NCBI RefSeq assembly: GCF_036967205.1
Contig: NZ_CP146022.1
Coordinates: forward strand, 1,116,001 to 1,180,000
From: Streptomyces sp. Q6
GTDB taxonomy: Bacteria; Actinomycetota; Actinomycetes; Streptomycetales; Streptomycetaceae
DNA length: 64,000 bases
Direction: 5' to 3'
Below are positions 44,520-62,020 of this stretch, piece by piece. The notes under the pieces were generated by a model. It worked only from the letters and a program-made list of their open reading frames with translations. It was not told the origin of the DNA and did no database searches. Positions within the stretch are counted from its first letter, which is position 1; every line of letters starts with the position of its first letter. The translations under genes were made by a program, and so were the position numbers.

Positions 44520-44650
44520 CGCACCAGCGTATGCGCAGGTGACGCCGGGCTCGCCCCCGCCCGACGCACGGGCGACGATGTGATGGATACTCGCTCGTCG
44601 TCGTCGTGAGGCGACACCGTCCGAGCCGTCCGAACAGGAAGCGTCGACCC

Positions 44651-46633: not shown

Positions 46634-46682
46634 CCGGCCGACGGGGGCTGACACGGCCCGCGGGCCGGCCCGCGCCGGTCAG
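46630..46682. terminator. Inverted repeat between APC permease and RraA genes
   Basis: CTGACCGGC (46630-46638) and GCCGGTCAG (46674-46682) are inverted copies that include both convergent stop codons. Between them is another palindromic stretch, GGCCCGCGGGCC. It is a candidate shared terminator. Confidence 0.5.
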
Positions 46683-47518
46683 GTGGCGGCGCGGCTCGCC
46701 AGGTACTCCGTCAGACCTTCGCCGGTCAGCGGGTAGTAGTCGGAGAGACGCGCGCCCTCGTCGAGCCGGCGGCGGGCGAACGCCTCCCGGTCCTGGTGCA
46801 GCAGCGAGTCCTCGGCGAGGGGGACCGCCTTGTCCTGCGGGACGACGACGGCGCCGTCCTCGTCGGCGACGATCAGGTCGCCGGGCGTGACGAGGGAGCC
46901 GCCCACGCCCACCGGCACGTTGAACGCCGACGGGAACAGCTCGGTCTGCGACGCGTAGTGCGGAGTGACGCCGGTGCACCAGACGGGCACGCCGAGCGCC
47001 CGGATCCGGGCCGCGTCCCTGACCCGTCCGTCGACCACGATCCCGGCGCCGCCGCGCAGCTTGAAGTAGCGCACCAGCATGTCGCCGAGGCAGCCGGTGA
47101 AGTGGCTGCCGTGGGCGGAGACGACGAGCACGTCGCCGGGCCTGATGGACTCCAGGACGCCCCACAGCGGGGTCTTGCGCTCGATGTCCTCCTGCTCGGC
47201 GCCGTTGAACACGTCCTCGCGCTGCGGCAGGAACTGCAACGTCACCGCGCCGCCGGTGATCTTCACGTCCGGCTCGCGGTGCAGCGGCACCGGCCCGTCG
47301 ATGAACGTCCGGGTGATGCCCATCTGGTGGAGCTTCGCGCAGGCCGTCGCCGCGCTGACGTCCTTCAGCGCCTCCACCATCCGCGCGGTGGGCCGTACGT
47401 AGGTCGAGGTGTGGACCGGCGCGCGCATCGAGTCGTAGGGACGAGGCTCGGGCACCTCCGTCCCGTTCGTACGGGTCTTCCCCGTGGACGGCGCCTTCTG
47501 ATCCCCAGTCGGGTGCAT
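46679..47518 (-). CDS. RraA-like protein, probable class II pyruvate aldolase
   Basis: This 279-aa protein has the RraA/HMG-aldolase core GDMLVRYFKLRGGAGIVVDGRVRDA at residues ~165-190, with the Arg and Asp that bind pyruvate and metal. It is longer than plain RraA (~160-230 aa), having an N-terminal extension. I chose ATG 47518 because GGAGAGG precedes it; an ATG 16 codons upstream would place the operator inside the gene. It is divergent from the fucosidase and shares its operator region. A likely role is retro-aldol cleavage of a 2-keto acid from sugar oxidation. RNase E regulation is unlikely here. Confidence 0.82.
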   Translation of the reverse strand: MHPTGDQKAPSTGKTRTNGTEVPEPRPYDSMRAPVHTSTYVRPTARMVEALKDVSAATACAKLHQMGITRTFIDGPVPLHREPDVKITGGAVTLQFLPQREDVFNGAEQEDIERKTPLWGVLESIRPGDVLVVSAHGSHFTGCLGDMLVRYFKLRGGAGIVVDGRVRDAARIRALGVPVWCTGVTPHYASQTELFPSAFNVPVGVGGSLVTPGDLIVADEDGAVVVPQDKAVPLAEDSLLHQDREAFARRRLDEGARLSDYYPLTGEGLTEYLASRAAT

Positions 47519-47562
47519 GCACGTGCCTCTCCGCGCGCTCGTCGCACGCAACGCCAGTGACA

Positions 47563-47579
47563 TCATCGCCTATCGATGG
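47563..47579. promoter_or_regulatory. FadR-type operator, site 1 (RraA/fucosidase divergent region)
   Basis: TCATCG-CCTAT-CGATGG matches the 17-bp motif found four times in this cluster, with one arm mismatch. A second partial copy, AATCGATT, lies at 47592-47599. The site sits between the two divergent genes. Confidence 0.75.
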
Positions 47580-47678
47580 TAGATAACAGCCAATCGATTA
47601 GTGATGTCAATGCGTCCCACCGCTTCCGTTCGCCGCTTCACTGATCGCTTCCGTTCGTTGCCTCGTCAGGAGATCCCG

Positions 47679-48974
47679 GTGGCCGGTGCTTCCCCCGAAA
47701 ACACTCAACTCGCCTCGTCAGCAGGGTGGTTCGAGGAGGCCAGGTTCGGCCTCTTCGTGCACTTCGGGCTGTACAGCATGGCCGCGCGGCACGAGTGGGT
47801 ACGCAGCCGGGAGTCCATGTCCCAGCAGGAGTACGACCGTTACCTGCACCGCTTCGACCCCGACCTGTTCGACGCGCGCGAACTGGCGCGCACCGCAAGG
47901 GAGTCGGGGATGCGCTACGCGGTCCTGACCGCCAAGCACCACGACGGTTTCTGCCTGTTCGACTCGGCGCTGACCGACTACACGTCGGTGCGGGCGACGG
48001 GGCGTGACCTGGTGCGGGAGTTCGTCGAGGCGATGCGCGCCGAAGGGCTGCGGGTGGGGCTGTACTACTCGCTCCTCGACTGGCACCACCCGGACTTCAC
48101 GGTCGACGAACACCACCCGCTGCGCGGCACCCCGGCGGAGCGGGAGCCCCGCGACATGGCGCGCTACCGCGCGTACATGGAGGGGCAGGTGCGGGAACTC
48201 CTCACCGGGTACGGCGAGATCGACCTGCTGTTCTTCGACTTCAGCTATCCGGAGAAGGGACCCGAGGAGTGGGGCGCCGACCATCTGATGCGCGTCGTAC
48301 GGGAGGTGCGGCCGGGCATCCTCGTCAACGACCGGATGGGCATACCCGGCGACTACGTCACACCCGAGCAGTACCAGCCGGACCGGCCGCTCGAACGTGA
48401 CGGGGAGCCGGTGCGCTGGGAGGCGTGCCACACGCTCAACGGCTCGTGGGGGTACGACCGCGACAACCACGACCACAAGGATCCGGCGCTGCTCGTCCGG
48501 ATGCTGGTGCAGTCCGTGGCCTGCGGCGGCAACCTCATCCTGAACGTCGGACCGACCGGCCGCGGCGCCCTCGATCCGCGGGCCCGCGAGATCCTGCGGG
48601 CCATCGCCGAGTGGACCGCGCCGCACGCCCGGTCCGTGCACGGCGCCGGAGCGAGCGCGTTCGAGGCGCCCGCGAACGCGCTCTACACGCAGCGCGGGCG
48701 GCACCTCTATCTGCACCTCCTCGCCTGGCCCCTCAAGCACCTCCACCTGCCGGGCCTCGCGGGGCGGGTGCGCTACGCCCAACTCCTGCACGACGGCTCG
48801 GAGATCCGCTTCCACGAGACGGACGGCGCCCGGCACGAGCACAACAACCTGGCGCCGCCCGGCCAGCCGGCGGGCACCCTCACCCTGGACCTGCCGATCG
48901 CCCGGCCCGACGTGCTGCTCCCCGTGATCGAGCTCGAACTCGGTCCTGAGCGCGAACACGACGGCGGGGAGTGA
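47679..48974 (+). CDS. Alpha-L-fucosidase (GH29)
   Basis: This 431-aa protein has the GH29 hallmarks: WFEEARFGLFVHFGLYS at the start of the TIM barrel, AVLTAKHHDGFCLFDS, and IDLLFFDFSYPEKGPEEW, where the Asp in FFDF is the expected nucleophile. There is no signal peptide, so it works inside the cell on imported oligosaccharides. I chose GTG 47679, which has AGGAG 6 nt upstream; the frame opens earlier at 47601 but that would place an operator-like repeat over the start. It is followed 4 nt later by the heparinase-like gene, forming an operon. Confidence 0.88.
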   Translation: MAGASPENTQLASSAGWFEEARFGLFVHFGLYSMAARHEWVRSRESMSQQEYDRYLHRFDPDLFDARELARTARESGMRYAVLTAKHHDGFCLFDSALTDYTSVRATGRDLVREFVEAMRAEGLRVGLYYSLLDWHHPDFTVDEHHPLRGTPAEREPRDMARYRAYMEGQVRELLTGYGEIDLLFFDFSYPEKGPEEWGADHLMRVVREVRPGILVNDRMGIPGDYVTPEQYQPDRPLERDGEPVRWEACHTLNGSWGYDRDNHDHKDPALLVRMLVQSVACGGNLILNVGPTGRGALDPRAREILRAIAEWTAPHARSVHGAGASAFEAPANALYTQRGRHLYLHLLAWPLKHLHLPGLAGRVRYAQLLHDGSEIRFHETDGARHEHNNLAPPGQPAGTLTLDLPIARPDVLLPVIELELGPEREHDGGE

Positions 48975-48978
48975 AACC

Positions 48979-50987
48979 GTGCCGGGGCCGCTGAGCGAAC
49001 TCCTCGGGAACCGGCCGCTCACGCCGGCGGGGCGGGTGAAGGTCCCCGATGTCACCTGCCGTGCCGTGTGGGACGCGGTGCCGCCGGACATCCGCGCGTC
49101 CGTACTGGCCGACGCCGCACGGGAGTTGGACCGCCCCGAACCCCGGCTGTCCGCCGGGGCGTGGGCGCGTGCCTTCCGCGACGGGAATCGCGGCGCGTAC
49201 GAGAACGCGGCCTGGGACCTCCAGGAACGGGTCTCGCTGCTCGCGCTCGCCGCCGTCCTGACCGGCGAGGCGGCGGACGCGACCTCGGCGACCGGGACCA
49301 CCGCGGCCACCGGGGAGACCGAGGCGTGTCCGCACCTGGACGCGGCGATCGACGGACTCATGGCGTTCGCCGAGGCGAGTTCCTGGTGCTGGGCGCCGCA
49401 CGACCGGTTCACGGCGGAGCGCGGCGAGTGGGTGCCCGACCCGGACGACCCGTACCTGGACCTGGGCGCGGCGGAGGTCGCCGCGCTGTTCGCCTGGGCG
49501 GACCACGCGCTCGGCCCCCACCTCGACCGCAGGATGCCGGGGTTGCGCCGGCGGCTGCGGCGCGAGGTGGAGCGGCGGGTGCTGCTGCCGTTCGAGCGGC
49601 GCCGGGACTGGCGCTGGATCGGCGCCGACGGGAGCGCCAACAACTGGAACCCGTGGATCCATGGCGCGGTGCTCGCCTGCGCCCTGCTGCTGTGCGACGA
49701 CGACGCCCGGCGCGCGCGGCTCGTCGGGCTCGTCGTGGAGGGCCTCGACCCTTACGTGGCCACGCTGCCCGACGACGGCGGGATCGACGAGGGCATCGCG
49801 TACTGGTGGGTGGGCGCGTGCCGCCTGCTGGAGATCCTCGACCTCCTCGCCGAGGCCGGTCCCGTGGACCGGGACGGTCAGGGCAGGACCGCCGCCCCGG
49901 CCCTCGACGCCCGCCGCCTCCCCCTGCTCGCCGAGCTGCTGCGCTATCCGCAGCGCATGCACCTCGGCGGCGCCTGGTACGTGAACGTGGGCGACGCGCC
50001 CGCCCGGCTCGACGCGCGGCAGCCCTGGCAGGTGCCGTTCCGCTGGGGTGTGCGGCTCGGGCAGCCGGAGACCGTGGCACACGCGGTGGCCGGGGCGCGG
50101 GGCGGGCCGCGCCGCCGAGGGCCGGGCTCGGGCGGGCGCTCACGGCGCTGGCCGACGCCGAATGGTGCCGGGCGGTCACGGCCCCGGTCGTGTCGGGGGC
50201 CGCGCCGTGGTCGGCCCGTGAGACCTGGCTGCCCCGCCTTCAGGTCCTGGTGGCCCGCGAGACGGCGGCGAGCGCCGAGGGCCTGACCGTCGCCGTGAAG
50301 GCGGGCCACAACGGCGAGCACCACAACCACCTCGACGTCGGCTCGTACTGGGTCGCGGTGCACGGCAGGCCACTGGTGGTGGACGTCGGCAGACCCACGT
50401 ACACGGCGGCCACGTTCGGCCCGGACCGTTACGCGGCCTGGCCGTTGCGCGGCGACTGGCACAACGTGCCCGAGCCCGGCGCCCCGCAGCGGCCGGGTCC
50501 GGAGCACCGCGCCCGGGACGTACGGGTCGAACTCGGCTCGGACATCACCGAGTTGACCGCGGAGATCGGTGCCGCGTACCCCTCGGGCGCCGTCGACCGC
50601 TGGGAACGTACGGTGCGACTGACCCGGGCGCGGACGGCCGACGCCGCGTACGTGACCGTCGAGGACCGGTGGCGGGGCGGCCCGGAACGCGTGGCGGTGC
50701 ACCATGTCCTGGCCGGTGAGGTCGCGTTCGGGGACGGCTGGGCCACGGTCCGCGCACCGGACGGAAGCGGTCTGCGCATGCGCTGGGACGCGCGTCTCGC
50801 GACCGCGACGGTCGTGCGCCGGGACCTGGACGACCCCCTGCTGAGCAGGAGTTGGGGCGACCACCTCACCCGGCTCACGCTCACGGTGCGCGCCCCTGGG
50901 GCCGAAGGTCGCCTGTCCGTACGGTGGTTGGTCGCTGCACGACTCTTGAAGAAGCGAACTGCCGCCCATAGCATCGGCAATCGATAG
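48979..50987 (+). pseudogene. Heparinase II/III-like protein, interrupted by a frameshift
   Basis: The frame from GTG 48979 encodes an alpha/alpha-toroid region up to ~50100 (NNWNPWIHGAVLACALLL; DDGGIDEGIAYWWVGACRLLEIL). The rest lies in another frame to 50987 and has the heparinase II/III C-terminal signature KAGHNGEHHNHLDVGSYWVAVHGRPLVVDVG followed by a beta sandwich. The join is in the very GC-rich 50090-50140; one extra base there restores a continuous ~668-aa protein. The motif is intact and the two halves are complete, so a sequence error is possible. Family enzymes cleave acidic polysaccharides by elimination. Confidence 0.85.
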
Positions 50988-50994
50988 ACGATAG
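50978..50994. promoter_or_regulatory. FadR-type operator, site 2 (upstream of the ABC importer)
   Basis: CAATCG-ATAGA-CGATAG is the 17-bp motif with two arm mismatches, read in reverse. It overlaps the heparinase-like stop codon, ~210 bp before the importer genes. A half site CTATCGATTA follows at 51085-51094. Confidence 0.7.
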
Positions 50995-51107
50995 TCGCTG
51001 AGGCGCGGGCCGTTCGCCGCCGCGCCACCGCCACCTCCCCTCCCCCCTCGCTGCTCCACAGGGAGCCCGGCGGCCGAACACCAGCTATCGATTATTCACG
51101 ACTGAGT

Positions 51108-51172
51108 AAGAGATCTGAGCAAGAGATCTGAGCCAGACGCCTGAACAAGGCAACCGAGCAAGACGTCTGAGC
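51108..51172. repeat. Five tandem 13-bp repeats before the sugar-binding protein gene
   Basis: Units AAGAGATCTGAGC (51108, 51121), CAGACGCCTGAAC (51134), AAGGCAACCGAGC (51147) and AAGACGTCTGAGC (51160) follow each other with no spacers. The array is in the likely 5' untranslated region, 28 bp before the ATG. Function unknown; the gap 50995-51107 holds no gene. Confidence 0.85.
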
Positions 51173-51200
51173 ACCACGACTACGCAACGGAGCGTGTCCG

Positions 51201-52445
51201 ATGAGAACAATGTGGCGCCGTGCCTGCGGGCTCACCGTGGCCCCCCTGGTGATGGCCTCGGCCGTCGCCTGTGGCGGCGGGTCCGACCAGGCCGCGGAGG
51301 GCACGACCCTCCGGGTCATCGTGAACATCACGCCGAACCTGACGGAGAAGTACTGGAACGACCTCTTCGCGACGTACGAGAAGGCCCACCCGGGCGTGAC
51401 GGTGAAGCTGGAGCTGACCGGCACGATCTCGGCGGACGCCAAGCTGCGTCAGGACCTCGCCGCCGGCGACCCGCCGGACGTCGCCCAGCAGATCACGCCG
51501 ACCGCCGACACGGCGTCCCTCTTCGCCGACCTGTCCGACCAGGCCTGGACCGCGAAGACACCGCTCGCCGACCAGTACGCCGTCGACGGCAAGCACTACG
51601 TGGTCGGCGTGGGCGAGCAGATCCAGTCGCTCGTCTTCTACGACAAGGCCGCCTTCAAGAAGGCGGGTCTGGACGCGACCGGCATCAAGACCATGGACCA
51701 GTTCACGGCCGCCATGGGCGAGTTGAAGGACGCGGGCTACAAGCCGCTCCAGACCGCGGGGCAGTGGGTCACCGGCTCGCAGTTCTCCATGATGGCCGAC
51801 GCGGGCGTCCTGACCGAGGACCCGAAGTGGACGGCCAAGCGCAACCGGGGCAAGGCGTCCTTCGCCGACAGCGGCTACCTGTCCTACCTGCGGACGTACA
51901 AGAAATGGATCGACCAGGGCTACCTCGACAAGAGCGCGCTCGGTCTCACCTACGCGGACGGCCAGACGGCGTTCCTGAACGGCAAGTCGGCGATGTACAT
52001 CATGGGCTCGTTCTTCGTGCCCGCCGCCGACGCCGCGAAGAAGAGCGACGACATCGGTGTGTTCACCATGCCGACCGACGGGACGTACCCCTCGGGCCAG
52101 TTCGGCAACATCTCGAACCCGTACACCGTGGTGAACAAGTCGCGGCACAAGGCCGAGGCCATCGAGTTCGTGAAGTGGGCGACCACCGACCCGCAGGCCA
52201 TCAAGAGCCAGCTCGCCTCCGACGGCAATCTGCGCGAGGGCTTCACGTACCCGATGTCGAGCCTGGGCACGTCGGTCCAGAAGATCCTCGACAAGGCGCC
52301 CTCGGTGCTCGTGAAGTCCGGGGACAGCCAGCCGATCGCCGGGTTCAGCGACGAGCTCAACAAGCAGGTCCAGTCCCTGTACACGGGCGCGTCCCCGCAG
52401 GCCGTCGCCGACGGATTGGACAAGTGGTGGAACTCGCAGGGCTGA
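51201..52445 (+). CDS. ABC sugar importer, solute-binding lipoprotein
   Basis: This 414-aa family 1 extracellular sugar-binding protein has a lipoprotein signal with lipobox ASAVAC and lipidated Cys24. The mature part has the usual cluster-B blocks (LEQ-like DLAAGDPPDVAQQ; YADGQTAFLNGKSAMYIMG). The ATG at 51201 follows CGGAG. It binds an oligosaccharide outside the membrane and passes it to the two permeases encoded next. No ATPase gene is nearby, so a shared MsiK-type ATPase is likely, as is usual in Streptomyces. Confidence 0.93.
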   Translation: MRTMWRRACGLTVAPLVMASAVACGGGSDQAAEGTTLRVIVNITPNLTEKYWNDLFATYEKAHPGVTVKLELTGTISADAKLRQDLAAGDPPDVAQQITPTADTASLFADLSDQAWTAKTPLADQYAVDGKHYVVGVGEQIQSLVFYDKAAFKKAGLDATGIKTMDQFTAAMGELKDAGYKPLQTAGQWVTGSQFSMMADAGVLTEDPKWTAKRNRGKASFADSGYLSYLRTYKKWIDQGYLDKSALGLTYADGQTAFLNGKSAMYIMGSFFVPAADAAKKSDDIGVFTMPTDGTYPSGQFGNISNPYTVVNKSRHKAEAIEFVKWATTDPQAIKSQLASDGNLREGFTYPMSSLGTSVQKILDKAPSVLVKSGDSQPIAGFSDELNKQVQSLYTGASPQAVADGLDKWWNSQG

Positions 52446-53362
52446 GCGACCGGCTGACCGCGGAGCAGCTGCGGGGCCGGCGGCGGGCGCGGCTGCGCGA
52501 CGCGGCGGTCTCGTTCGGGATGATGGGCCCGGCCGTCCTGCTGTACACGGTGATGACCGTCGTCCCGGTGGGCGTCGCCGTGTACCTCAGCCTCACCGAC
52601 TGGGACGGCTTCTCCACGGCCTCGTTCATCGGGCTCGACAACTACAAGCACCTCTTCGACGACCCGAGTTCGACGGACGCCTGGTACGTGACGGCGCTGA
52701 TCGCGGGCGCGGGGACGGTGCTCATGGTGGGCCTCGGCCTCGTGTACGCGCTCGCGCTCAAGGGCCGGTCCCGTTCGAACTCGTTCTTCCGGGCCGTGGC
52801 GTACTTCCCGCACGTGATCAGCGCCCTGATCCTCGGCTATCTGTGGGCGGCGATCCTCGGGACGAACGGCGCGATCAACAACACCCTCGCGAAGTTCGGC
52901 GTCGAACCGGTCGGTTTCCTCTTCGACGAGACGTTCGCGCTGATCTCACTGATCGCCGTGATCGTGTGGGCCGGGTTCGGCTTCAACGTGGTGCTGTTCG
53001 TCGCCGCCCTCCAGACCGTCCCCGCCGAGCTCCTGGAGGCCGCGGCGATCGACGGGGCGAGCAGGAGGCAGATCAATCTGCGGGTCGTGGTCCCCATGAT
53101 CGCGCCCGTGGTGACCGTGGCGACGGTCCTGAACCTGGTGGGGCTCATCCGGGCGTACGACATCGTGGTCAGCCTCACCGGCGGCGGTCCCGCCGGGTCG
53201 ACGCAGACGTTCACGTATCTCATCCTCGCCCGGTCCTTCGAGGGCACCAAGGTCGGTTACGCGACCGCGCAGGCGGTGTTCCTGATGGTGGTGTCCGCCG
53301 CGCTCGCCCTCTTCGTGACGGCGCTGCGCAACCGCCAAGACCAAGCCGCGACAGGGAGTTGA
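52427..53362 (+). CDS. ABC sugar importer permease (first, MalF-type)
   Basis: This 311-aa permease has six transmembrane segments. It carries the EAA loop EAAAIDGASRRQINLRVVVPM that contacts the ATPase and the C-terminal GGPAGSTQTFTYLI block. Start: GTG at 52427 (52424 also possible), overlapping the binding-protein gene by ~20 bp, so translation is coupled. A weak ribosome site leaves the exact start uncertain. Confidence 0.9.
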   Translation: MELAGLSDRLTAEQLRGRRRARLRDAAVSFGMMGPAVLLYTVMTVVPVGVAVYLSLTDWDGFSTASFIGLDNYKHLFDDPSSTDAWYVTALIAGAGTVLMVGLGLVYALALKGRSRSNSFFRAVAYFPHVISALILGYLWAAILGTNGAINNTLAKFGVEPVGFLFDETFALISLIAVIVWAGFGFNVVLFVAALQTVPAELLEAAAIDGASRRQINLRVVVPMIAPVVTVATVLNLVGLIRAYDIVVSLTGGGPAGSTQTFTYLILARSFEGTKVGYATAQAVFLMVVSAALALFVTALRNRQDQAATGS

Positions 53363-53371
53363 GGAGCAGCA

Positions 53372-54292
53372 GTGGTGGTACTTGAGGCACAGGCCGACGA
53401 CCGGCCGAAGGCCGCGCGGGGCAGCCGGCCGAGGAGTGACGACACGGTGCGGGCGGACCGCGAGGAGTCGCGCTCACCGGTGCGCCGGGTACTGCTCGGT
53501 GTGCTGCTCGTGGTCATGGTCGTGCCGATCTACCTGCTCGTGGTCAACGCGTTCAAGTCGCAGCAGGAGATCCTCGACAACCCGTTCTCGATCCCGTTCG
53601 GCGGGCTCACCTTCGCGCACATGTCGGCGGCGATCAGCAGCCCGCAGTTCAACGTCATCGGCGGGTACGGCTTCACGCTGTTCCTCGTCGTGCTGGTGGA
53701 CGTGTTCTGCATCCTGCTCGCGGGTCCGGCGGCGTACGCGATCGCGCGCAGCCTCCAGCGGCGTACGCAGCTGGTGCTGCTGTACTTCCTCGCGGGCACG
53801 TTCATCCCGGGCGCCGCCGTGATCATCCCGGTGATCTACGTGCTGCGCGAGATCGGCCTCGCCAACACGGTGACCGGTCTCGTCGCGCACGACGTGGCGT
53901 CCACGCTGCCGGTGAGCATCTTCCTGTTCGTCGGCTTCATCCGCACGATCCCGGTGGACATCGACCACGCGGCGACGATCGACGGCGCGGGTCGTTACCG
54001 CACCTTCTGGACCATCATCTTCCCGCTGATGCGTCCCGCGGTCGTCACCGTCCTGATCCTCAACTCCATCGGGATCTGGAACGACTTCGTGTCGCCGCAG
54101 ATCCTGCTCAGCCCGTCCTCCGGGCACTACACGGTGACGACGGCGATCTACGCCGGGATCAGCCAGTACTCCACGGATTTGACGAAGGTGTTCCCGAACC
54201 TGCTGCTCGCCGTCGCGCCCGTCGTCATCTTCTTCATCTACATGCAGCGCCACATCATCAGCGGTCTCACGGTCGGCGCCGTCAAGGGCTGA
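53372..54292 (+). CDS. ABC sugar importer permease (second, MalG-type)
   Basis: This 306-aa permease has six transmembrane segments preceded by a ~40-residue charged N-terminal tail. It has the EAA loop DHAATIDGAGRYRTFWTIIFPLMRPAV. Start: GTG at 53372 with GAGGAG upstream, 9 nt after the first permease. The two form the heterodimeric channel of the carbohydrate importer. Confidence 0.92.
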   Translation: MVVLEAQADDRPKAARGSRPRSDDTVRADREESRSPVRRVLLGVLLVVMVVPIYLLVVNAFKSQQEILDNPFSIPFGGLTFAHMSAAISSPQFNVIGGYGFTLFLVVLVDVFCILLAGPAAYAIARSLQRRTQLVLLYFLAGTFIPGAAVIIPVIYVLREIGLANTVTGLVAHDVASTLPVSIFLFVGFIRTIPVDIDHAATIDGAGRYRTFWTIIFPLMRPAVVTVLILNSIGIWNDFVSPQILLSPSSGHYTVTTAIYAGISQYSTDLTKVFPNLLLAVAPVVIFFIYMQRHIISGLTVGAVKG

Positions 54293-54318
54293 GCCGCCCC
54301 AGGAGAAAGGATCTCGGA

Positions 54319-56292
54319 GTGCCCAGGAGAGGAAGAAGCCGTTCCGCGGCCGTACTGCTCGCCTGCCTCGCGGTGGTCGCGGCCGGTCACCCGGCCGCCG
54401 CCCATCCGGCCACGTCGCAGGCGGGGAAGGTCTATTACGTCGGTCCGTACGGTGACGACAGCGCCGCGGGGACCGACGCCACGTATCCGTTCCGGCACAT
54501 CCAGAAGTGCGCGGACGTGATGGTGCCGGGCGACACGTGCGAGATCGTGTCGGGCCGGTACGAGGAGACGGTGGTGCCCGCCCGGTCCGGCACCGCCGAG
54601 CTGCCGATCACGTACCGGGCGGCTCCCGGCGCGGACGTGACGGTCAGCGGCGCCTCGTCGCTCACCGGTTTCGCCCCGGTGACCGCCGCCGATGTCGCGC
54701 GGATCGCGACGACCGATCCGTACGCCGCCGACTCGCAGTTCAGCGACGCGGTGGCGGCCGGCCACATCTACAGCACCGATGTCGACCTCGGCTCCGACGT
54801 GTCCACGGTGCAGGTGTTGACCGACCGAAAGATGGGCGTCGAGGCCCAATGGCCCTACCCGGGACTCGACCTGCTCGACCCCTCGCTCCAGTACGCCGGT
54901 GAGGGCAGCGCGAGCGCCACGATCGCCGACGCGGACCTGACCCGCCCGGCCGGTTACTGGGACGGCGCGCGGGCCCTCACCGGCTACTGGTACGTCTCGG
55001 CCACCGGGACCGTGAAGAGCTCCGCCGTCGGCTCGGTGACCCTCGACGTGGCACCGCCGTGCGTCCACAAGGTCGTACCGAAGGAGACGCGCTACGCGCT
55101 GTCCGGCAAGATCGGCGAGCTCGCCCACCCCGGTGAGTGGTTCTACGACCCGACGGCGAAGCGGCTGTACGTGTACGGGGAGGACGACCCGGACAACCAC
55201 CGGATGGAGGCCAAGCGGCGCACCCTGGGCTTCGATCTGACGGCCACCAGCCACACGAAGGTCGCGGGGATCTCGCTGTTCGCCACGACCGTGCGGACGG
55301 GCCCCACCAGCACCGGTGTCACGCTCGACGGCATCAAGGGCCAGTACCTGTCGCACTACACGGACATCACCCAGGGCGCGACGGACTGCGGTTCGACGGT
55401 GACGCGGGGCGTCGCCGACACCGGGCTCATCATCGACGGCACGTACAACAAGGTCGTGAACAGCGATCTGTCGCTGAGCGCGGGCAACGGCATCGCGCTG
55501 CGCGGCCAGAACAACACGGCGTCCGACAACGTCATCCACGACGTCGACTACCTGGGCACGTACGCGGCCGGTATCGCCGTGCAGGGCAACAGCCAGACCG
55601 TCACGCACAACACGATCTCGCGCGTCGGCCGCAGCGGCATCAACCTCCAGTGGAACACCGTGGAGGGCCTCGCCCCGGGCAAGGACGTCATCGCGTACAA
55701 CGACATCTCCGGGTACGCGCGGCTCAGCCTGGACGTCGCCGCGATCTACACCTGTTGCAGCGCGTCGATGATGGGCTCGTCCCTCGATCACAACGTGCTG
55801 CACGACCCGGCGCCGACCACGACGTCGTCGACGTTCGGCATCTCCGGGGTGTACGCGGACAACGGCCAGAGCGATCTGCGGATCCACAACAACGTGGGCT
55901 GGGGCAACCGCGAGGGCACGGTGATGCTCAACGGGCTCGGCACCGGCTCGCACGACAACCTCGTCGCGAACAACACCGGGGGCATGACGCTGTTCTACGT
56001 GAAGGAGCCGAACGCGTCGACCGGCACCCGGATCTACAACAACGTCGGGACGATCCGGGGCCTGACCGACGCCACGAACGGCGGCCTGGTCCTGTCGAAC
56101 AACCTTCCCCCGGAGAGCGATCCGCGCTTCGTCGACGCGGCGAACCACGACTTCCGGCTGACCGCCGATTCCCCGGCGCGCAATGCGGCGATCCCGCTGC
56201 CCGGGATCAATGACGGTTCCACGGACGCGACACCGAGTCTGGGCGCGTATCAGTACGGCGCACCGAAGTGGGAGGCCGGCGCCCGCCGATAA
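54319..56292 (+). CDS. Secreted right-handed parallel beta-helix protein
   Basis: This 657-aa protein has a signal peptide (RRGRSRSAAVLLACLAVVAAGHPAAA, cut near residue 28) and then a repetitive parallel beta-helix core (~340-580; short Asn-rich turns such as GNGIALRGQNN and HDVDYLGTYAAGIAVQGNS). Such folds are used by pectinases and polysaccharide lyases or hydrolases. The GTG at 54319 has AGGAGAAAGG upstream, and it is the fourth gene of the importer operon. It is probably a secreted enzyme cleaving the polymer before import. Active-site residues are not identified. Confidence 0.85.
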   Translation: MPRRGRSRSAAVLLACLAVVAAGHPAAAHPATSQAGKVYYVGPYGDDSAAGTDATYPFRHIQKCADVMVPGDTCEIVSGRYEETVVPARSGTAELPITYRAAPGADVTVSGASSLTGFAPVTAADVARIATTDPYAADSQFSDAVAAGHIYSTDVDLGSDVSTVQVLTDRKMGVEAQWPYPGLDLLDPSLQYAGEGSASATIADADLTRPAGYWDGARALTGYWYVSATGTVKSSAVGSVTLDVAPPCVHKVVPKETRYALSGKIGELAHPGEWFYDPTAKRLYVYGEDDPDNHRMEAKRRTLGFDLTATSHTKVAGISLFATTVRTGPTSTGVTLDGIKGQYLSHYTDITQGATDCGSTVTRGVADTGLIIDGTYNKVVNSDLSLSAGNGIALRGQNNTASDNVIHDVDYLGTYAAGIAVQGNSQTVTHNTISRVGRSGINLQWNTVEGLAPGKDVIAYNDISGYARLSLDVAAIYTCCSASMMGSSLDHNVLHDPAPTTTSSTFGISGVYADNGQSDLRIHNNVGWGNREGTVMLNGLGTGSHDNLVANNTGGMTLFYVKEPNASTGTRIYNNVGTIRGLTDATNGGLVLSNNLPPESDPRFVDAANHDFRLTADSPARNAAIPLPGINDGSTDATPSLGAYQYGAPKWEAGARR

Positions 56293-56337
56293 TTCCCCGA
56301 TTTCACGCAGACTCTGCAACTCACTTGCAAAACAGTA

Positions 56338-56369
56338 GGGGCCCGGTGCGGAATTCCGCACCGGGCCCC
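56338..56369. terminator. Perfect 32-bp palindrome, bidirectional terminator
   Basis: GGGGCCCGGTGCGGAA (56338-56353) is exactly complementary to TTCCGCACCGGGCCCC (56354-56369), with no spacer. It lies between the convergent beta-helix and GntR genes, which end at 56292 and 56378. Short T-rich runs follow on both sides (TTAT on plus, TACTGTTTT on minus). Confidence 0.9.
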
Positions 56370-56377
56370 TTATCGAG

Positions 56378-57115
56378 TCAGCCTGATTTCTTTGCGGCGA
56401 CCCTCTTCCGCGGTTTCCTCACCTCGCGCGCGTCCGGTACGGGACCGCGGCCCGCCGCGTGATCGGCGAAGGCCGCCGCGGCCTTGTCGGGCTCACCGGA
56501 CCGCAACAGGCCCACGAGACGGCCGTGTTCCTCGGCCATCGCGCCCCGGTCGCCGTCGAAGAGCGGGTCGGAGATGGCCCGCAGCGTGCGCAGGCTCGGC
56601 TCGATGACCTCCCACATCCGGGCCAGGAACGGGTTGCCCGCGAACTGGCTGACCAGGGTGTGGAACTCGATGTCGGCGTCCCGGAAGCCGCTGACGTCGC
56701 CCGCGGCGACCGCCTCGTGCATCCGGTCCACCACCGCGTCCAGCTCGGCGAGCTGCTCCTCGGTGGCGTGCTCGGCCGCCAGCTGCGCGGCGAGACGCTC
56801 CAGCGGTTCGCGCACCTGCCGGGCGTACTCGGCGTCCTTCGAGGAGATCTCGACGACGAAGTGGCCGCGGCGCGGCACGTGTGTGAGCAGGCCCTCACGG
56901 GCCAGCCGCTTGACCGCTTCGCGCACCGGGGCCTGGCTGACCCCGAGCCGCCGCGCGATCTCCGACTCGACCACCCGGTCGTTCGGCTCCAGGTCGCCCT
57001 CGACGACGGCCTGCCGGAGCAGGTCGTAGACCTGGTCCGAGATCAGCGTCTTGCGGAACCGGTCCTTGTTCGTAGCCAGCGTGGAGACGAAACCAGCTGA
57101 CGCGTCAGATGCCAT
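56378..57115 (-). CDS. FadR-type GntR regulator of the fucose cluster
   Basis: This 245-aa protein has an N-terminal winged HTH at residues ~25-88 (VESEIARRLGVSQAPVREAVKRLAREGLL) and an FCD effector domain at ~95-225, with the metal/ligand residues in DADIEFHTLVSQFAGN and EEHGRLVGLLRSG. FadR members bind organic acids or sugar acids. The ATG at 57115 is downstream of a perfect operator (57176-57192). The C-terminus ends in a short basic tail (RKRVAAKKSG). It is the likely repressor of the whole cluster, released by a sugar acid such as fuconate. Confidence 0.88.
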   Translation of the reverse strand: MASDASAGFVSTLATNKDRFRKTLISDQVYDLLRQAVVEGDLEPNDRVVESEIARRLGVSQAPVREAVKRLAREGLLTHVPRRGHFVVEISSKDAEYARQVREPLERLAAQLAAEHATEEQLAELDAVVDRMHEAVAAGDVSGFRDADIEFHTLVSQFAGNPFLARMWEVIEPSLRTLRAISDPLFDGDRGAMAEEHGRLVGLLRSGEPDKAAAAFADHAAGRGPVPDAREVRKPRKRVAAKKSG

Positions 57116-57175
57116 GAATTCCCAATCCCGCGCCGGGGCACGTCAGTTGATCCCTTGTCGGGCCATGATACGCAC

Positions 57176-57192
57176 CCATCGTCTATCGATGG
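57176..57192. promoter_or_regulatory. FadR-type operator, site 3 (upstream of the regulator)
   Basis: CCATCG-TCTAT-CGATGG is a perfect inverted repeat with 6-bp arms, ~60 bp before the regulator start. It implies self-control. It is identical to site 4. Confidence 0.85.
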
Positions 57193-57194
57193 AA

Positions 57195-58181
57195 TCACAC
57201 GGATGTTTCCAGCTGCTTGGCCAGCCATTCCAATTTCACGGTCTCGTGGGTGGGCCCGCCGCCTTCATGGTCATTGAACGGATAGGCCCGGATCTGTTTG
57301 TCGGCCTGGTCCACATTCCGCAGCGCGCCGTAATGGTTGAACGCCGCGTACACGGTGGAGGGCGGGCAGATGCGGTCCATCAGGCCGACCGAGAAGAGCG
57401 TCGGCGCGTTCGCCCTGCGGGCCAGGGTCGCGGCGTCGACGTAGGACAGGGTGCGGACCACGGTGGCCGCGTGCTCGCGGTGCAGTTTCACGTACGTGGT
57501 GACCTCGGCGTACGGCGGCATGTCGGTGATCGTGGTGGCGCGCGGGAAGTGGCACAGGAACGGGACGTCCGGCATGCAGGCCACGAGGTCGGGGACGAGC
57601 CCCGCGGCGGCGAGGGCGATGCCGCCGCCCTGGCTGGTGCCGGTGACCACGGTGCGGGTGGGGTCGACGGCCTCGTGCGTGCGCGCGGCGGCGACGGCGC
57701 GCACCGCGTCGGTGTACAGGCGCCGGTAGAAGGAGCGCTCGGGGTCGAGCACGCCGCGGGTGAGGAAGCCGGGGGCGGCGACGTCGCCGGTGGCCGGGTC
57801 GGGGTCGGGCGTCTCGGCGCCCTGCCCCCGGGTGTCCATGACGAAGTGCGCGTAGCCGGCGTCGGCCCACAGCCGCTTCTCGTGCGGGGCGCCGCGTCCG
57901 CTGCCGTAGCCCAGGTACTCGACGACGACGGGCAGCGGGCCGGAGCGGGTGACCGGCAGCTGGAGCCAGCCGCGGACGGGGTGGCCGCCGTAGCCGGCGA
58001 AGGTGACGTCGAAGGTGTCGATCGTGGCGAGCCCGTTGTGCGCGGACTCGAACACGGCGGCCACGTCGTGCTGTTCCTGCGCGTCGAGGGTCTGTCGCCA
58101 GAACGCGTCGAGGTCGTCCGGTTCGGGGATGTCGGGGCGGTATCTCTCCAGCTCGTCGAGGGGCAGGTCGAACTGGGCCAT
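57195..58181 (-). CDS. Acetyl esterase, CE7 family (acetylxylan esterase / cephalosporin-C deacetylase)
   Basis: This 328-aa alpha/beta hydrolase is full length for CE7. The nucleophile is Ser in VTGTSQGGGIAL, the acid is Asp in SVGLMDRICPPSTVYAAFNHY, and the His is in YPFNDHEGG. RGQG in VMDTRGQGAETPD is the family's oxyanion-loop motif. Cytosolic (no signal), it removes acetyl groups from imported acetylated sugars. It lies between the regulator and the amidohydrolase, on the same strand, with the operator of the regulator in the gap after it. Confidence 0.9.
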   Translation of the reverse strand: MAQFDLPLDELERYRPDIPEPDDLDAFWRQTLDAQEQHDVAAVFESAHNGLATIDTFDVTFAGYGGHPVRGWLQLPVTRSGPLPVVVEYLGYGSGRGAPHEKRLWADAGYAHFVMDTRGQGAETPDPDPATGDVAAPGFLTRGVLDPERSFYRRLYTDAVRAVAAARTHEAVDPTRTVVTGTSQGGGIALAAAGLVPDLVACMPDVPFLCHFPRATTITDMPPYAEVTTYVKLHREHAATVVRTLSYVDAATLARRANAPTLFSVGLMDRICPPSTVYAAFNHYGALRNVDQADKQIRAYPFNDHEGGGPTHETVKLEWLAKQLETSV

Positions 58182-58220
58182 GGGGAACCTCCGGGTGAGG
58201 GCGGGGGGCAGGGTGAGTGG

Positions 58221-59048
58221 TCAGCCGTCGAGGCCGTAGGCGCGGACGGCGTTCGTGTGCAGGACGCGCTCGCGGTCGCCGGCGTCCAGGTGGTCGAGTC
58301 CGCTGCGGGACAGGGCCAGTGAGGCGGCGCGGGTGCCGCGCGGCAGGCAGATCGGCCAGTCGGAGCCGATCAGGCAGCGGTCGGGGCCGAGGGTGTCGAC
58401 GACGTGGCGCACCAGGTGCGCGACGCGCGCCGGCTCGACCCCGTGCTGCTGGGTGAGCAGCCCGGAGGCCTTCACCAGCACGTTCGGGGCGGCCGCGGCC
58501 CGTTCGACGTCCCGGTGCCAGTCCCCCGCGTCCCGCGCGCGCAGGTGCGGCGCGTTGCCGAGGTGGTCGACGACGACGGTCAGCGCGGGGTGCCGCTCGG
58601 CGACCTCGGCCGCCGCGGTCAACGCGCCCTGGTGAAGGTTGAGTTCGAGGACGACTCCGGTCGCGGCGAGGACGGGGACGAGGGCGCGGGCCGCCTCGGG
58701 GGTGTCCTTCCAGGCGGCGCCGCCGAGCCGCATGCCGTTGGGACGGGACGCGCCCCACGCGTCGAGCCGCTCCAGGAACCGCCCGGCGCCTTCGTCGCCG
58801 TGGACGTGCAGGTTCGCCACGTAGCCCGCGACCAGATCCGGGCGGCGCAGCCGCAGCGCCCGCAGCGCGAGGGTCTCACCGAGGTCCCCGCGCGACGCCT
58901 CGACCAGGAGGGCACCCGCCAACTCCGGTACGTCCGCACCTGATCGGCCGAGGTCGGCCTCGTCGAAGACCCGGTGGTGCACGCTCTCCGGCCGGATCCA
59001 CCCGAACCCCTCGGCCGGGTTCCACAGATGGACATGGCAGTCGATCAC
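58221..59048 (-). CDS. Amidohydrolase-family lactonase, L-fuconolactonase-like
   Basis: This 275-aa TIM-barrel protein of the amidohydrolase_2 family has the metal motif HVH in MIDCHVHLWNP, a His in VVVDHLGNAP and the Asp in IGSDWPICLP. Family members include L-fuconolactonase and related sugar lactonases, which hydrolyse the 1,5-lactone formed by sugar dehydrogenases. With the aldo/keto reductase and fucosidase in the same cluster this fits oxidation of L-fucose. Start ATG 59048, downstream of the shared operator region. Confidence 0.86.
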   Translation of the reverse strand: MIDCHVHLWNPAEGFGWIRPESVHHRVFDEADLGRSGADVPELAGALLVEASRGDLGETLALRALRLRRPDLVAGYVANLHVHGDEGAGRFLERLDAWGASRPNGMRLGGAAWKDTPEAARALVPVLAATGVVLELNLHQGALTAAAEVAERHPALTVVVDHLGNAPHLRARDAGDWHRDVERAAAAPNVLVKASGLLTQQHGVEPARVAHLVRHVVDTLGPDRCLIGSDWPICLPRGTRAASLALSRSGLDHLDAGDRERVLHTNAVRAYGLDG

Positions 59049-59065
59049 GGTCCGCTCCCTCGCCG

Positions 59066-59142
59066 CCTACGTATTGACACGTCGGCTCCCCGCCGGTGAC
59101 TCTAACCATCGTCTATCGATGGGCGATTGTTCAATACGTAGG
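59066..59142. repeat. Perfect 12-bp inverted repeat around operator site 4
   Basis: CCTACGTATTGA (59066-59077) and TCAATACGTAGG (59131-59142) are exact inverted copies whose centre, 59104, is next to the 17-bp operator. The left arm is 18 bp before the amidohydrolase start. The right arm lies 24 bp before the chosen start of the 640-aa protein gene. It looks like a second control element for both divergent genes. Confidence 0.8.
59106..59122. promoter_or_regulatory. FadR-type operator, site 4 (divergent region)
   Basis: CCATCG-TCTAT-CGATGG is identical to site 3. It lies between the amidohydrolase gene and the gene starting at 59166, so it can control both. Confidence 0.85.
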
Positions 59143-59165
59143 TGACGAGGGAGCGGGTGTTCTCG

Positions 59166-61088
59166 ATGCTCAGGCCTGAGCCGACCGACGGCACACAGAC
59201 AGGGGGAGAGACGTTCGGGCCCCGCCTGACCGCGCGCCGGACGCTCACCGAACACCCCCGATGGGCGCTGCTCGAAAGGGAGTTGTTCGCCGCGCAGGAG
59301 AAGGCGTGGCGGCTCTTCGCCGACCGCTATACCGAGGGGGACGGCCGGCTCGTCTTCCGGGACACGCTCGGTGCGGGCATGGACGGCCGGGACGGCGTGG
59401 ACGACTTCTACGAGCCGTTCTTCAACTGGCCGACGCTGTATGTCCTGGGCGGCAGCGCGGAGTTGTTGACGGCGGCGCGGCGGCACTGGCGCGGGGTCAC
59501 CGCACAGCTCACCGAGATGGGCATGCTCGTCGACGGCCTGGAGCGCGGCTACGACTGGTTCCACCAGGGCGAGGGCCTGCTGCTCTTCTACGGCCTGTGC
59601 CTCGCCGACCCCGGCGACCCGGAACTGCGCGCGCTCGCGGGCCGGTTCGCCGACCTGTACCTTCCCGGCGGTCCGAACTACGACCCGGAGCACCGGGTCC
59701 TGCGCGCCCCGCACAACGGCGCCGCCGGGCCGCGCTTCGGGTTCAGCGACGAGGAGCCGTACTTCCCGTGGAGCCTGGCGCTGCATCCGTACGGGCTTCC
59801 GCTGGACGGCTTCGAGGGCGTCACGTCCTTCGACGAGCTGGCCGCGTCACCGGAACTCGCCCGCGCGTACGGCCGGGCGATGTGGGACCGGATGGGCCGC
59901 GGCGACACCCTCGCGAACCTGGGCGCCACGGGCCTGGCCACCCACGCCTTCCTGCTCAGCGGGGAGCAGCGGTACGCGGACTGGGTCGCCGAGTACGTGG
60001 GCGTGTGGCGGGAGCGGCTCGAAGGCCGTGAGGTGGTGCCCGACAACGCCGGGGCGCACGGCGTCGTCGGCGAGTACCTCGACGGCCGCTGGTACGGCGG
60101 CCACTACGGCTGGTCCTGGCCGCACGGACTCTCCCCCGTCGCCAGCTCCACCCTCGTCGGCGCGGCCAACGCGACGCTCCTCACCGGCGACCGCGGCTTC
60201 CTCGACCTGGCGCGCAACCCGCTCGACACCGTGCTGCGCCACGCGGAACAGCGCGGCGCCGACGAGCGCGGGACGCTCGGCGAACGCTGGGACCCGCACC
60301 TGGCCGCGATGGAGGCCGAGCGCACCCTGATGGTGCCGCAGCGGCACAACGACGCGGGCTGGTTCGACTACACCGTCATGCCGGGCCAACTCCCCGTAGG
60401 ACTGTGGCACTTCAGCCGTGACGAGGCCGACCGGGAGCGCATCGAGGTGCTGCGCACGGGTTCCTCCTGGGACTGGACGGCCGTGCACACGCAGCGCATC
60501 AAGGACGAGGCCGGCCACGAGGAGCCCTGGTACGAGTTCCTGCACGGGCGCAACCCGGGGTTCCCCGAGCGGATGCTGCGCAGCGCCCTCGCGAGCTGCG
60601 CCGAGCGGGTCGCGGCCATCGAGAACGACCCGACCGACCCGGCCGTCGGCCCCGACGTCCTGGACATCCACCACTGGCAGCATCTCAACCCGGTCGTCAC
60701 GGAAGCCCTGTTGCAGCTGACCACCGGCTCCCCGCAGGTCCTCTACAACGGCGGCCTGACCCAACTCCACGTCCGCTACCACGACATGGACGCGCGCCGC
60801 CCCGGTCTGCCCACGGACGTCGCCGCGCTCGTGACCGACATCCGCCCCGAGCACACGGTGGTGGAGCTGGTGAATCTCGGCGGCTCGGCGCGCTCCCTGC
60901 TCGTGCAGACGGGCTCGTTCGCCGAGCACCACGTCGCGACGGTCCGGGTGGACGACGGCCCGGAGCAGCCGGTCGACGGACCGTACTGCCGCGTCGACCT
61001 GCCGGGGAACACCCGCATCCGACTGACCCTGACCATGACGCTGCGCGCCGGCCGCGCGGCCCTGGCCTCCCCGTGGGAGACGGCATGA
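59166..61088 (+). CDS. Uncharacterised ~640-aa protein of the fucose cluster
   Basis: I do not recognise the family. The protein is soluble (no signal or membrane segment). Residues ~60-430 are rich in aromatic and acidic residues with repeated helix-like stretches (GYDWFHQGEGLLLFYGL, YGGHYGWSWPHGLSPVAS), suggesting an (alpha/alpha)6-type glycosidase or lyase fold; the last ~120 residues look like a beta-sandwich. The start is uncertain: ATG 59166, or GTG at 59142 or 59157 in the same frame. It overlaps the aldo/keto reductase gene by 4 nt. It probably acts on the imported oligosaccharide. Confidence 0.7.
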   Translation: MLRPEPTDGTQTGGETFGPRLTARRTLTEHPRWALLERELFAAQEKAWRLFADRYTEGDGRLVFRDTLGAGMDGRDGVDDFYEPFFNWPTLYVLGGSAELLTAARRHWRGVTAQLTEMGMLVDGLERGYDWFHQGEGLLLFYGLCLADPGDPELRALAGRFADLYLPGGPNYDPEHRVLRAPHNGAAGPRFGFSDEEPYFPWSLALHPYGLPLDGFEGVTSFDELAASPELARAYGRAMWDRMGRGDTLANLGATGLATHAFLLSGEQRYADWVAEYVGVWRERLEGREVVPDNAGAHGVVGEYLDGRWYGGHYGWSWPHGLSPVASSTLVGAANATLLTGDRGFLDLARNPLDTVLRHAEQRGADERGTLGERWDPHLAAMEAERTLMVPQRHNDAGWFDYTVMPGQLPVGLWHFSRDEADRERIEVLRTGSSWDWTAVHTQRIKDEAGHEEPWYEFLHGRNPGFPERMLRSALASCAERVAAIENDPTDPAVGPDVLDIHHWQHLNPVVTEALLQLTTGSPQVLYNGGLTQLHVRYHDMDARRPGLPTDVAALVTDIRPEHTVVELVNLGGSARSLLVQTGSFAEHHVATVRVDDGPEQPVDGPYCRVDLPGNTRIRLTLTMTLRAGRAALASPWETA

Positions 61089-62020
61089 CGCACCGACTGC
61101 CCTTCGACCTGCCCCGGCTCGGCCTCGGCACCGCACCCCTGGGCGGCCTCTTCGCGGAGGTCACCGAGGAGGACGCGGCGGCGACGCTGAAGGCCGCGGC
61201 CGCCGAAGGCATCACGTACGTCGACACGGCGCCCCGCTACGGCCACGGCCAGGCCGAGGAACGCCTGGGACGGCTGCTCGGCCCGGCCGGGATCACCGAC
61301 CCGGTGATCTCCACCAAGACGGGCTGGCTGCTGCGCCCCCGCCCGGACGGCTCCCCCGGCGAGGTCGTCACGGACTGGACGGAGCGCGGCATCCGGGAGT
61401 CCCTGGAGTCGAGCCTGACCCGCCTCGGCCGCGACAGCGTCGACATCCTCTACCTCCACGACCCCGACCACTACGCCGAGGACATCCGGCGCACCGCGTA
61501 CCCGGCGGTGCGCAAGCTGCGCGAGGAGGGCCTCGTCCGGGCGCTGGGCTTCGGCATGAACCACAGCGCCCCGCTCGCCCGCTACGTCGACGAGTTCGAC
61601 GTCGACGTCGTGCTCGTCGCGGGCCGCTTCTCGCTCCTCGACCACGAGGCGCTGACCACGCTGCTGCCCCGGTGCGCGGCGCGGGGCACGGCCGTGGTCG
61701 TGGGCGGCGTGTTCAACACCGGTCTGCTCGCCGACCCGACGCCCGGCGCGATGTACAACTACCGGCCGGTCCCCGCGCGGACCCTCGACCGGGCGCGGCG
61801 GGCCCGGGAGCTGTGCGACGCGTACGGCGTACCGCTGCCCGCGGCCGCGCTCCAGTTCCCGTACCTGCATCCGGCCGTCACCTCGGTGGTCGTCGGCTGC
61901 CGCTCGGCGGACGAGGTCACGGCGAACGCGGCGGCCGCCCGCTTCCCGGTCCCGGACGAGCTGTGGCAGCGGCTCGCGGCGGAGGGATTCGTCCCCCGGG
62001 AGGTCCTTGCCGCCCGCTGA
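61085..62020 (+). CDS. Aldo/keto reductase, L-fucose (D-threo-aldose) dehydrogenase-like
   Basis: This 311-aa AKR starts LGLGTAPLGGLFAEVTEEDAAATL. The catalytic Asp and Tyr are in YVDTAPRYGHGQAEERLG, Lys in ISTKTGWLLRP and His in LYLHDPDHY. The N-terminal block is typical of D-threo-aldose 1-dehydrogenases, which oxidise L-fucose to L-fucono-1,5-lactone with NAD(P)+. The lactone would be the substrate of the amidohydrolase encoded nearby. It starts inside the stop codon of the preceding gene (ATGA). Confidence 0.86.
   Translation: MTHRLPFDLPRLGLGTAPLGGLFAEVTEEDAAATLKAAAAEGITYVDTAPRYGHGQAEERLGRLLGPAGITDPVISTKTGWLLRPRPDGSPGEVVTDWTERGIRESLESSLTRLGRDSVDILYLHDPDHYAEDIRRTAYPAVRKLREEGLVRALGFGMNHSAPLARYVDEFDVDVVLVAGRFSLLDHEALTTLLPRCAARGTAVVVGGVFNTGLLADPTPGAMYNYRPVPARTLDRARRARELCDAYGVPLPAAALQFPYLHPAVTSVVVGCRSADEVTANAAAARFPVPDELWQRLAAEGFVPREVLAAR

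Follow-up and report, generated by a model that had tools for sequence, protein, structure and literature searches.

A sugar regulon of the Agl3 type in Streptomyces sp. Q6, probably adapted to fucose-bearing glycans, has a member related to a protein described as an RNase inhibitor

Here we analysed a 15 kb stretch of the Streptomyces sp. Q6 genome (8.95 Mb), positions 46679–62020 of a window of 64,000 nucleotides (the whole stretch of DNA presented), and found that it is one tightly bounded regulon of the Agl3 type, a relative of the agl3EFGXYZ/Agl3R system of Streptomyces coelicolor that is probably adapted to fucose-bearing glycans. The locus is ordinary in most of its parts; what is unusual is a recurrent member, of the RraA family, that is related to a protein filed as a ribonuclease (RNase) inhibitor. 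An earlier, sequence-only reading of the window had named a GH29 fucosidase, an aldo-keto reductase (AKR), an amidohydrolase, a CE7 esterase, an RraA-type protein and a sugar importer, all of which are present in Pfam scans. It had not named the gene of a 648-amino-acid protein (59142–61088, forward strand; our signature protein ‘AA6’), which is a good marker of the locus and which we call the toroid protein after its predicted fold.

An operator links these genes. The palindrome CCATCGTCTATCGATGG is perfect at 57176–57192 (forward strand), upstream of the gene for a GntR/FCD regulator identified by Pfam (56378–57115, reverse strand), and at 59106–59122 (forward strand), in a divergent intergenic region. 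It recurs with 2 mismatches at 47563–47579 (forward strand), between rraA and the GH29 gene, and at 50978–50994 (reverse strand), upstream of the importer genes. The pattern was derived from two of the four sites; dinucleotide shuffles of the window predict 0.08 matches against the 4 observed, and the co-regulation of the locus genes exceeds chance. A whole-genome scan at up to 3 mismatches returned 9 matches: the 4 locus sites, one with 2 and four with 3 mismatches. The core ATCGNCTATCGAT was sought as an exact match in nine whole genomes picked for carrying this locus or a relative; all of its 34 occurrences lie inside the bounds set for the locus or no more than 100 bases outside them, and the reversed control gave 0. 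The single regulon proposed by the sequence-only reading is borne out by the four sites and by these 34 cores. Control by the Agl3R-type regulator would be repression rather than activation. A further operator-like site at 7175815 (L005, 1501–1517; 2 mismatches), upstream of a gene that resembles oxalyl-CoA decarboxylase by eye, is probably a chance match, because the exact core is absent there and matches outside the locus number 5 in the whole genome, against 3 for the reversed pattern.

The toroid protein has 352 relatives among the candidates of a genome collection, and the best 80 of these, all actinobacterial, define the named loci used below (64 stretches of at least 16 kb; G and L numbers denote genomes and loci). 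Cluster labels in these loci come from our own gene calls and clustering, backed by Pfam/NCBIfam scans of single members for GH95, GH106, pectinesterase, GH28, GntR/FCD, galactarate dehydratase, KdgD and a GH141-related beta-helix protein. Gene counts are lower bounds because contig ends cut loci: beta-helix 66, lactonase 53, AKR 38, short-chain dehydrogenase/reductase (SDR) 22, CE7 18, GH95 15, GH29 14 (plus 3 cut) and mutarotase-like 12. The core is held by 23 of the 80 (75 sites; reversed control 0), which span Streptomyces, Nonomuraea, [Actinomadura] parvosata, Thermocatellispora, Catenulispora, Amycolatopsis and Actinacidiphila; the other 57 have no core site, and many have another regulator type. 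At up to 3 mismatches, sites recur in the rraA/GH29 gap, before the binding-protein gene, in the gap between GntR and CE7 or lactonase, and in that between the lactonase and the 648-residue gene; in four loci a site falls within a gene called by a simple gene finder.

Relatives of the window among the named loci are mostly Streptomyces. All six that cover the locus keep RraA, GH29, the importer genes, the beta-helix protein, GntR, the lactonase, the toroid protein and the AKR. Fucosidase, dehydrogenase and lactonase stay together in close relatives, and RraA is a conserved partner in 6/6. In G259 the GH29 match is a fragment only (L070, 7711–7875; residues 23–80), with the remaining regulon kept. 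In a seventh relative, G138, the stretch is a contig of 4.1 kb that carries three of the conserved genes.

The link to agl3 runs through RraA. The window protein (46679–47566, reverse strand; PRK08245 subfamily, Pfam 111.5 bits) has as its best solved relative PDB 5x15 (331 bits; 61% identity), which we take to be RraAS2, an assignment that agrees with gene order. A search with the 5x15 chain matched 16 of 392 genomes of the genus at E 1e-70, and G226 encodes exactly the aligned part of the chain (100% over 250 residues). Its gene order is beta-helix, GntR, binding protein, permease, permease, 648-residue protein, RraA, AKR, SDR, lactonase; the gene for the 5x15 chain (L185, 9236–10054), read as RraAS2, sits between the toroid protein gene and the AKR gene. 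In S. coelicolor, Agl3E, F and G are reported as sco7167 to sco7165 (PMC3924187) and RraAS2 as sco7163 (PMC10126417), and the operon agl3EFGXYZ is described as under repression by Agl3R and GlnR (PMC10704036). Because the sco numbering fits the G226 order gene by gene, the 648-residue protein would be Agl3X, RraAS2 would be Agl3Y and the AKR Agl3Z, with agl3EFGXYZ plus Agl3R probably corresponding to sco7168 to sco7162.

The window shares with this system a solute-binding protein (51201–52445), two ATP-binding cassette (ABC) transporter permeases (52424–53362 and 53372–54292; all forward strand, assigned by Pfam and identity to G226 as Agl3E-, F- and G-like), the toroid protein, RraA and the AKR, together with the GntR/FCD regulator and an operator core common to both, at the regulator and importer genes; the G226 locus has two cores. 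Identities to G226 range from 42 to 61%: RraA 61%, GntR 54%, permeases 52 and 54%, AKR 49%, toroid protein 48%, and binding and beta-helix proteins 42% each, with the lactonase at 35% over only 162 residues. No transporter ATPase gene was seen in the locus, and Agl3 may rely on the shared MsiK ATPase (PMC3924187). The two systems differ in that the window genes are split into divergent units, with rraA and the toroid–AKR pair in separate units rather than in one contiguous EFGXYZ, and in that the window locus adds GH29, CE7 and heparinase-like genes and lacks the SDR.

The non-phosphorylative L-fucose pathway is reported to use a mutarotase, dehydrogenase, lactonase and dehydratase, followed by an aldolase or by an SDR plus a hydrolase (PMC11199699, PMC6336799). 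The window locus offers the opening dehydrogenase and lactonase; RraA is found in the place that usually belongs to an aldolase or hydrolase from other families, and the dehydratase lies outside the regulon. Pfam scans of called genes showed no dehydratase gene in 46679–62020, as the sequence-only reading had noted, but its suggestion that the route is incomplete is not supported for the organism as a whole. Among five enolase-superfamily matches in the genome, one (7808337–7809689) scores 706 bits to the L-fuconate dehydratase 1yey, and it belongs to a second, fucose locus at 7.81 Mb with GntR, binding-protein, ATPase, permease, SDR, AKR, mutarotase-like, lactonase and dehydratase genes (named partly by eye). 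The pathway is probably completed in trans. The proposed search for a dehydratase elsewhere under the same operator found none that is co-regulated, and no core site lies away from the locus in the nine genomes. In 297 genomes of the family, 45 with the 648-residue protein and 173 with the dehydratase (lists compared by eye), L-fuconate dehydratase occurs in 42/45 with the protein versus 131/252 without it (Fisher p = 3.9e-8, kinship and genome size ignored); all eight sampled genomes with a window-type locus have it (G000, G257, G296, G259, G144, G047, G121 and G138). For the SDR route, the genome has seven FAH-family hydrolase matches, none at either fucose-type locus and, in the four surrounding stretches looked at, none tied to the pathway.

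Fucose is the best reading of the substrate of the AKR and lactonase, and a likely one. The AKR (61073–62020, forward strand; Pfam and sequence comparison), a candidate L-fucose/L-galactose 1-dehydrogenase, shares 46–47% identity with its fucose-locus counterpart and keeps the usual catalytic residues; between the fucose-locus SDR and the one in the agl3-type locus of G226, identity reaches 73% (the SDR of L185 has no match to solved structures at E 1e-45). The GH29 alpha-L-fucosidase (47601–48974, forward strand) scores 280.3 bits to Pfam Alpha_L_fucos (cut-off 25.2) and 380 bits to 6gn6, and a GH29 or GH95 gene is present in 32 of the 80 named loci (own clusters). These observations speak against the idea that the sugar is another one, such as the L-galactose of pectin-type chains, with GH29 only accessory, which we regard as possible but doubtful. 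In its favour, all five top-scoring relatives of the AKR with a solved structure are L-galactose dehydrogenases; GH29 is absent from related loci such as L081 and L101; the dehydratase is missing from 3 of the 45 genomes that encode the signature protein; and the lactonase, an Amidohydro_2 protein by Pfam (58221–59048, reverse strand), falls far under the cut-off of the NCBIfam L-fucono-1,5-lactonase model NF052480 (78.7 bits against 400), a threshold that the fucose-locus and agl3-type lactonases also miss (221 and 190 bits). Some sister loci also lie beside pectinesterase, GH28, GH106, galactarate dehydratase and KdgD genes, and mainly because of these pectin and galacturonate neighbours a pectin-type substrate is kept in view. 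Stretches L188 (2569–5787), L142 (2–2274) and L190 (2806–4188) adjoin glucarate- or galactarate-type dehydratase, KdgD-type, epimerase-family and GH28 genes, which points to uronate-containing substrates there. The L-fucose proposed by the sequence-only reading stands as likely, qualified by the divergent lactonase, the L-galactose dehydrogenase relatives of the AKR and the three genomes without dehydratase.

D-X20-R-D is the motif of RraA-fold class II pyruvate aldolases. It is intact in the window RraA and is carried by 31 of 33 RraA relatives; within it, Arg-123 has been tied to catalysis and Asp-124 to metal binding (PMC5065237). RraA occurs in 33 of the 80 named loci versus 4 with an enolase-type gene (lower bounds). 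Together with the lack of L-fuconate dehydratase in the agl3-type genome G226, and with the RraA-family protein FlDet, reported as a 2-keto-3-deoxyglucarate dehydratase/decarboxylase (PMC8563752), these counts favour RraA itself performing the missing step, either as a dehydratase or as a lyase acting on the sugar acid or its oxidised form, so that fuconate dehydratase would be unneeded. We nonetheless consider this decidedly unlikely: 42 of 45 genomes possess the dehydratase, and three IlvD/EDD-type genes in G226 might dehydrate the acid. FlDet resembles the window protein in family and in a role in glycan catabolism, but its reported substrate is a uronate-derived diacid, the only one accepted among the keto acids tried, and its identity to the RNase E inhibitor of S. 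coelicolor is given as 26% (PMC8563752).

That the window RraA is an RNase E/ES inhibitor and no enzyme seems highly improbable. RraAS2, taken as the 61% identical relative, is reported to inhibit RNase ES in vitro and has been studied as such, not as an enzyme (PMC10126417); it shares with the window protein the motif and the kinds of operon partners. Yet rraA stands at the operator of a sugar regulon and accompanies genes for the importer, the AKR or the lactonase in different genera, the metal/aldolase motif is intact, and the two roles are mutually compatible. The close Streptomyces relative described as an RNase inhibitor may really be a sugar-breakdown enzyme. A bolder version, in which RraAS2-type proteins are misnamed and serve as the dedicated lyase in an oxidative route of the Agl3 type, one that handles a 6-deoxy sugar or a related one and can run without fuconate dehydratase, with Agl3X founding a new glycan-active family, strikes us as rather unlikely. 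We found no paper in open-licence PubMed Central that connects RraAS2 with agl3 or with the oxidation of sugars, and none there on RraA with L-fuconate dehydratase, on fucose and an ABC transporter in Streptomyces, on RNase regulators and sugar acids, or on agl3Y.

We infer the substrate, the order of steps, the reaction of RraA and the location of the enzymes as follows. An Agl3R-type GntR regulator would control one local regulon for fucose-bearing, probably acetylated oligosaccharides. Outside the cell, the glycan would be trimmed by the beta-helix enzyme (GH141/GH120-like); fragments would enter through the ABC importer, and the toroid protein, GH29 and the esterase would break them down. 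The AKR would oxidise the L-fucose set free in this way, or a closely related sugar such as L-galactose; the amidohydrolase would open the lactone, and the L-fuconate dehydratase encoded in the separate 7.81 Mb locus would dehydrate the sugar acid, after which the 2-keto-3-deoxy acid would be cleaved by RraA as a metal-dependent pyruvate aldolase or routed through SDR/hydrolase. This is the best explanation that we have, and we give it about an even chance of being right. Several observations weigh against it. The reported inducers of the agl3 porter are trehalose and melibiose, not fucose (PMC3924187); the operator is absent from the dehydratase locus, even at four mismatches; the window lactonase is only 34–35% identical, over about 162 residues, to the fucose-locus and agl3-type lactonases; and the co-occurrence statistic takes no account of kinship and genome size. 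G226, G114 and G151 have the toroid protein without L-fuconate dehydratase: at E 1e-5 nothing was found in G114 and G151, and G226 gave only partial matches, 24–35% identical. No D-altronate-type dehydratase (PF04295) was found in G000, G226, G114 or G151.

The toroid protein has no match in Pfam (E 0.01), NCBIfam (E 0.01) or PDB sequences (E 1). Its predicted fold is a helical toroid plus a beta-sandwich; it was compared by fold and family with GH76, GH88, GH47 and GH127, and the fold searches bear only on these families. The secreted beta-helix protein of the sequence-only reading (54319–56292, forward strand) is visible as a predicted fold and is probably secreted, although its Pfam match, to DUF1565, is below cut-off; from a model with a predicted local distance difference test score of 67, the best fold match is BT_1002 (5mqp, E 1.5e-13), and 13 beta-helix members gave no match to GH141_M at E 0.01. 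The heparinase II/III-like lyase claimed in the same reading is present as a gene (48979–50987, forward strand), but its reading frame shifts within roughly 50088–50127, and it is either a pseudogene or the product of an assembly error. A single-frame relative in L086 barely passes the Pfam cut-off for Hepar_II_III_C (24.8 versus 24); the eight relatives in the cluster are all single frames, a biased count because broken copies would not have joined the cluster. At E 1e-10, three of the six covered relatives have no copy.

The CE7 acetyl esterase (57195–58181, reverse strand; Pfam 345 bits), like the heparinase-like gene, is found in three of the six covered relative loci, one CE7 match being in two pieces. 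A 3-hydroxyisobutyrate-dehydrogenase-like gene downstream of the AKR was rejected as a fixed member: its cluster has two members, and it clusters with a neighbour in 1 of the 80 named loci. A long open reading frame at 44606–46633 gives no Pfam match at E 0.01 and looks as if it encodes a membrane protein. Just past the right end of the window (L017, 4407–11911), GH30-type and GH42 genes, with an ABC importer that by eye is their own, form a galactan-type locus, which we exclude from the regulon because no core site lies outside the locus. The G+C content of the window is 68–77% in 2 kb steps.

This analysis joins two separate literatures, that of the agl3 sugar operon and that of RraAS2 as an inhibitor of RNase ES, and brings to light a conserved protein family that has no Pfam or NCBIfam model. 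It yields predictions that are testable in S. coelicolor: an operator, a substrate class, namely glycans that bear fucose, and an enzymatic function of RraAS2.

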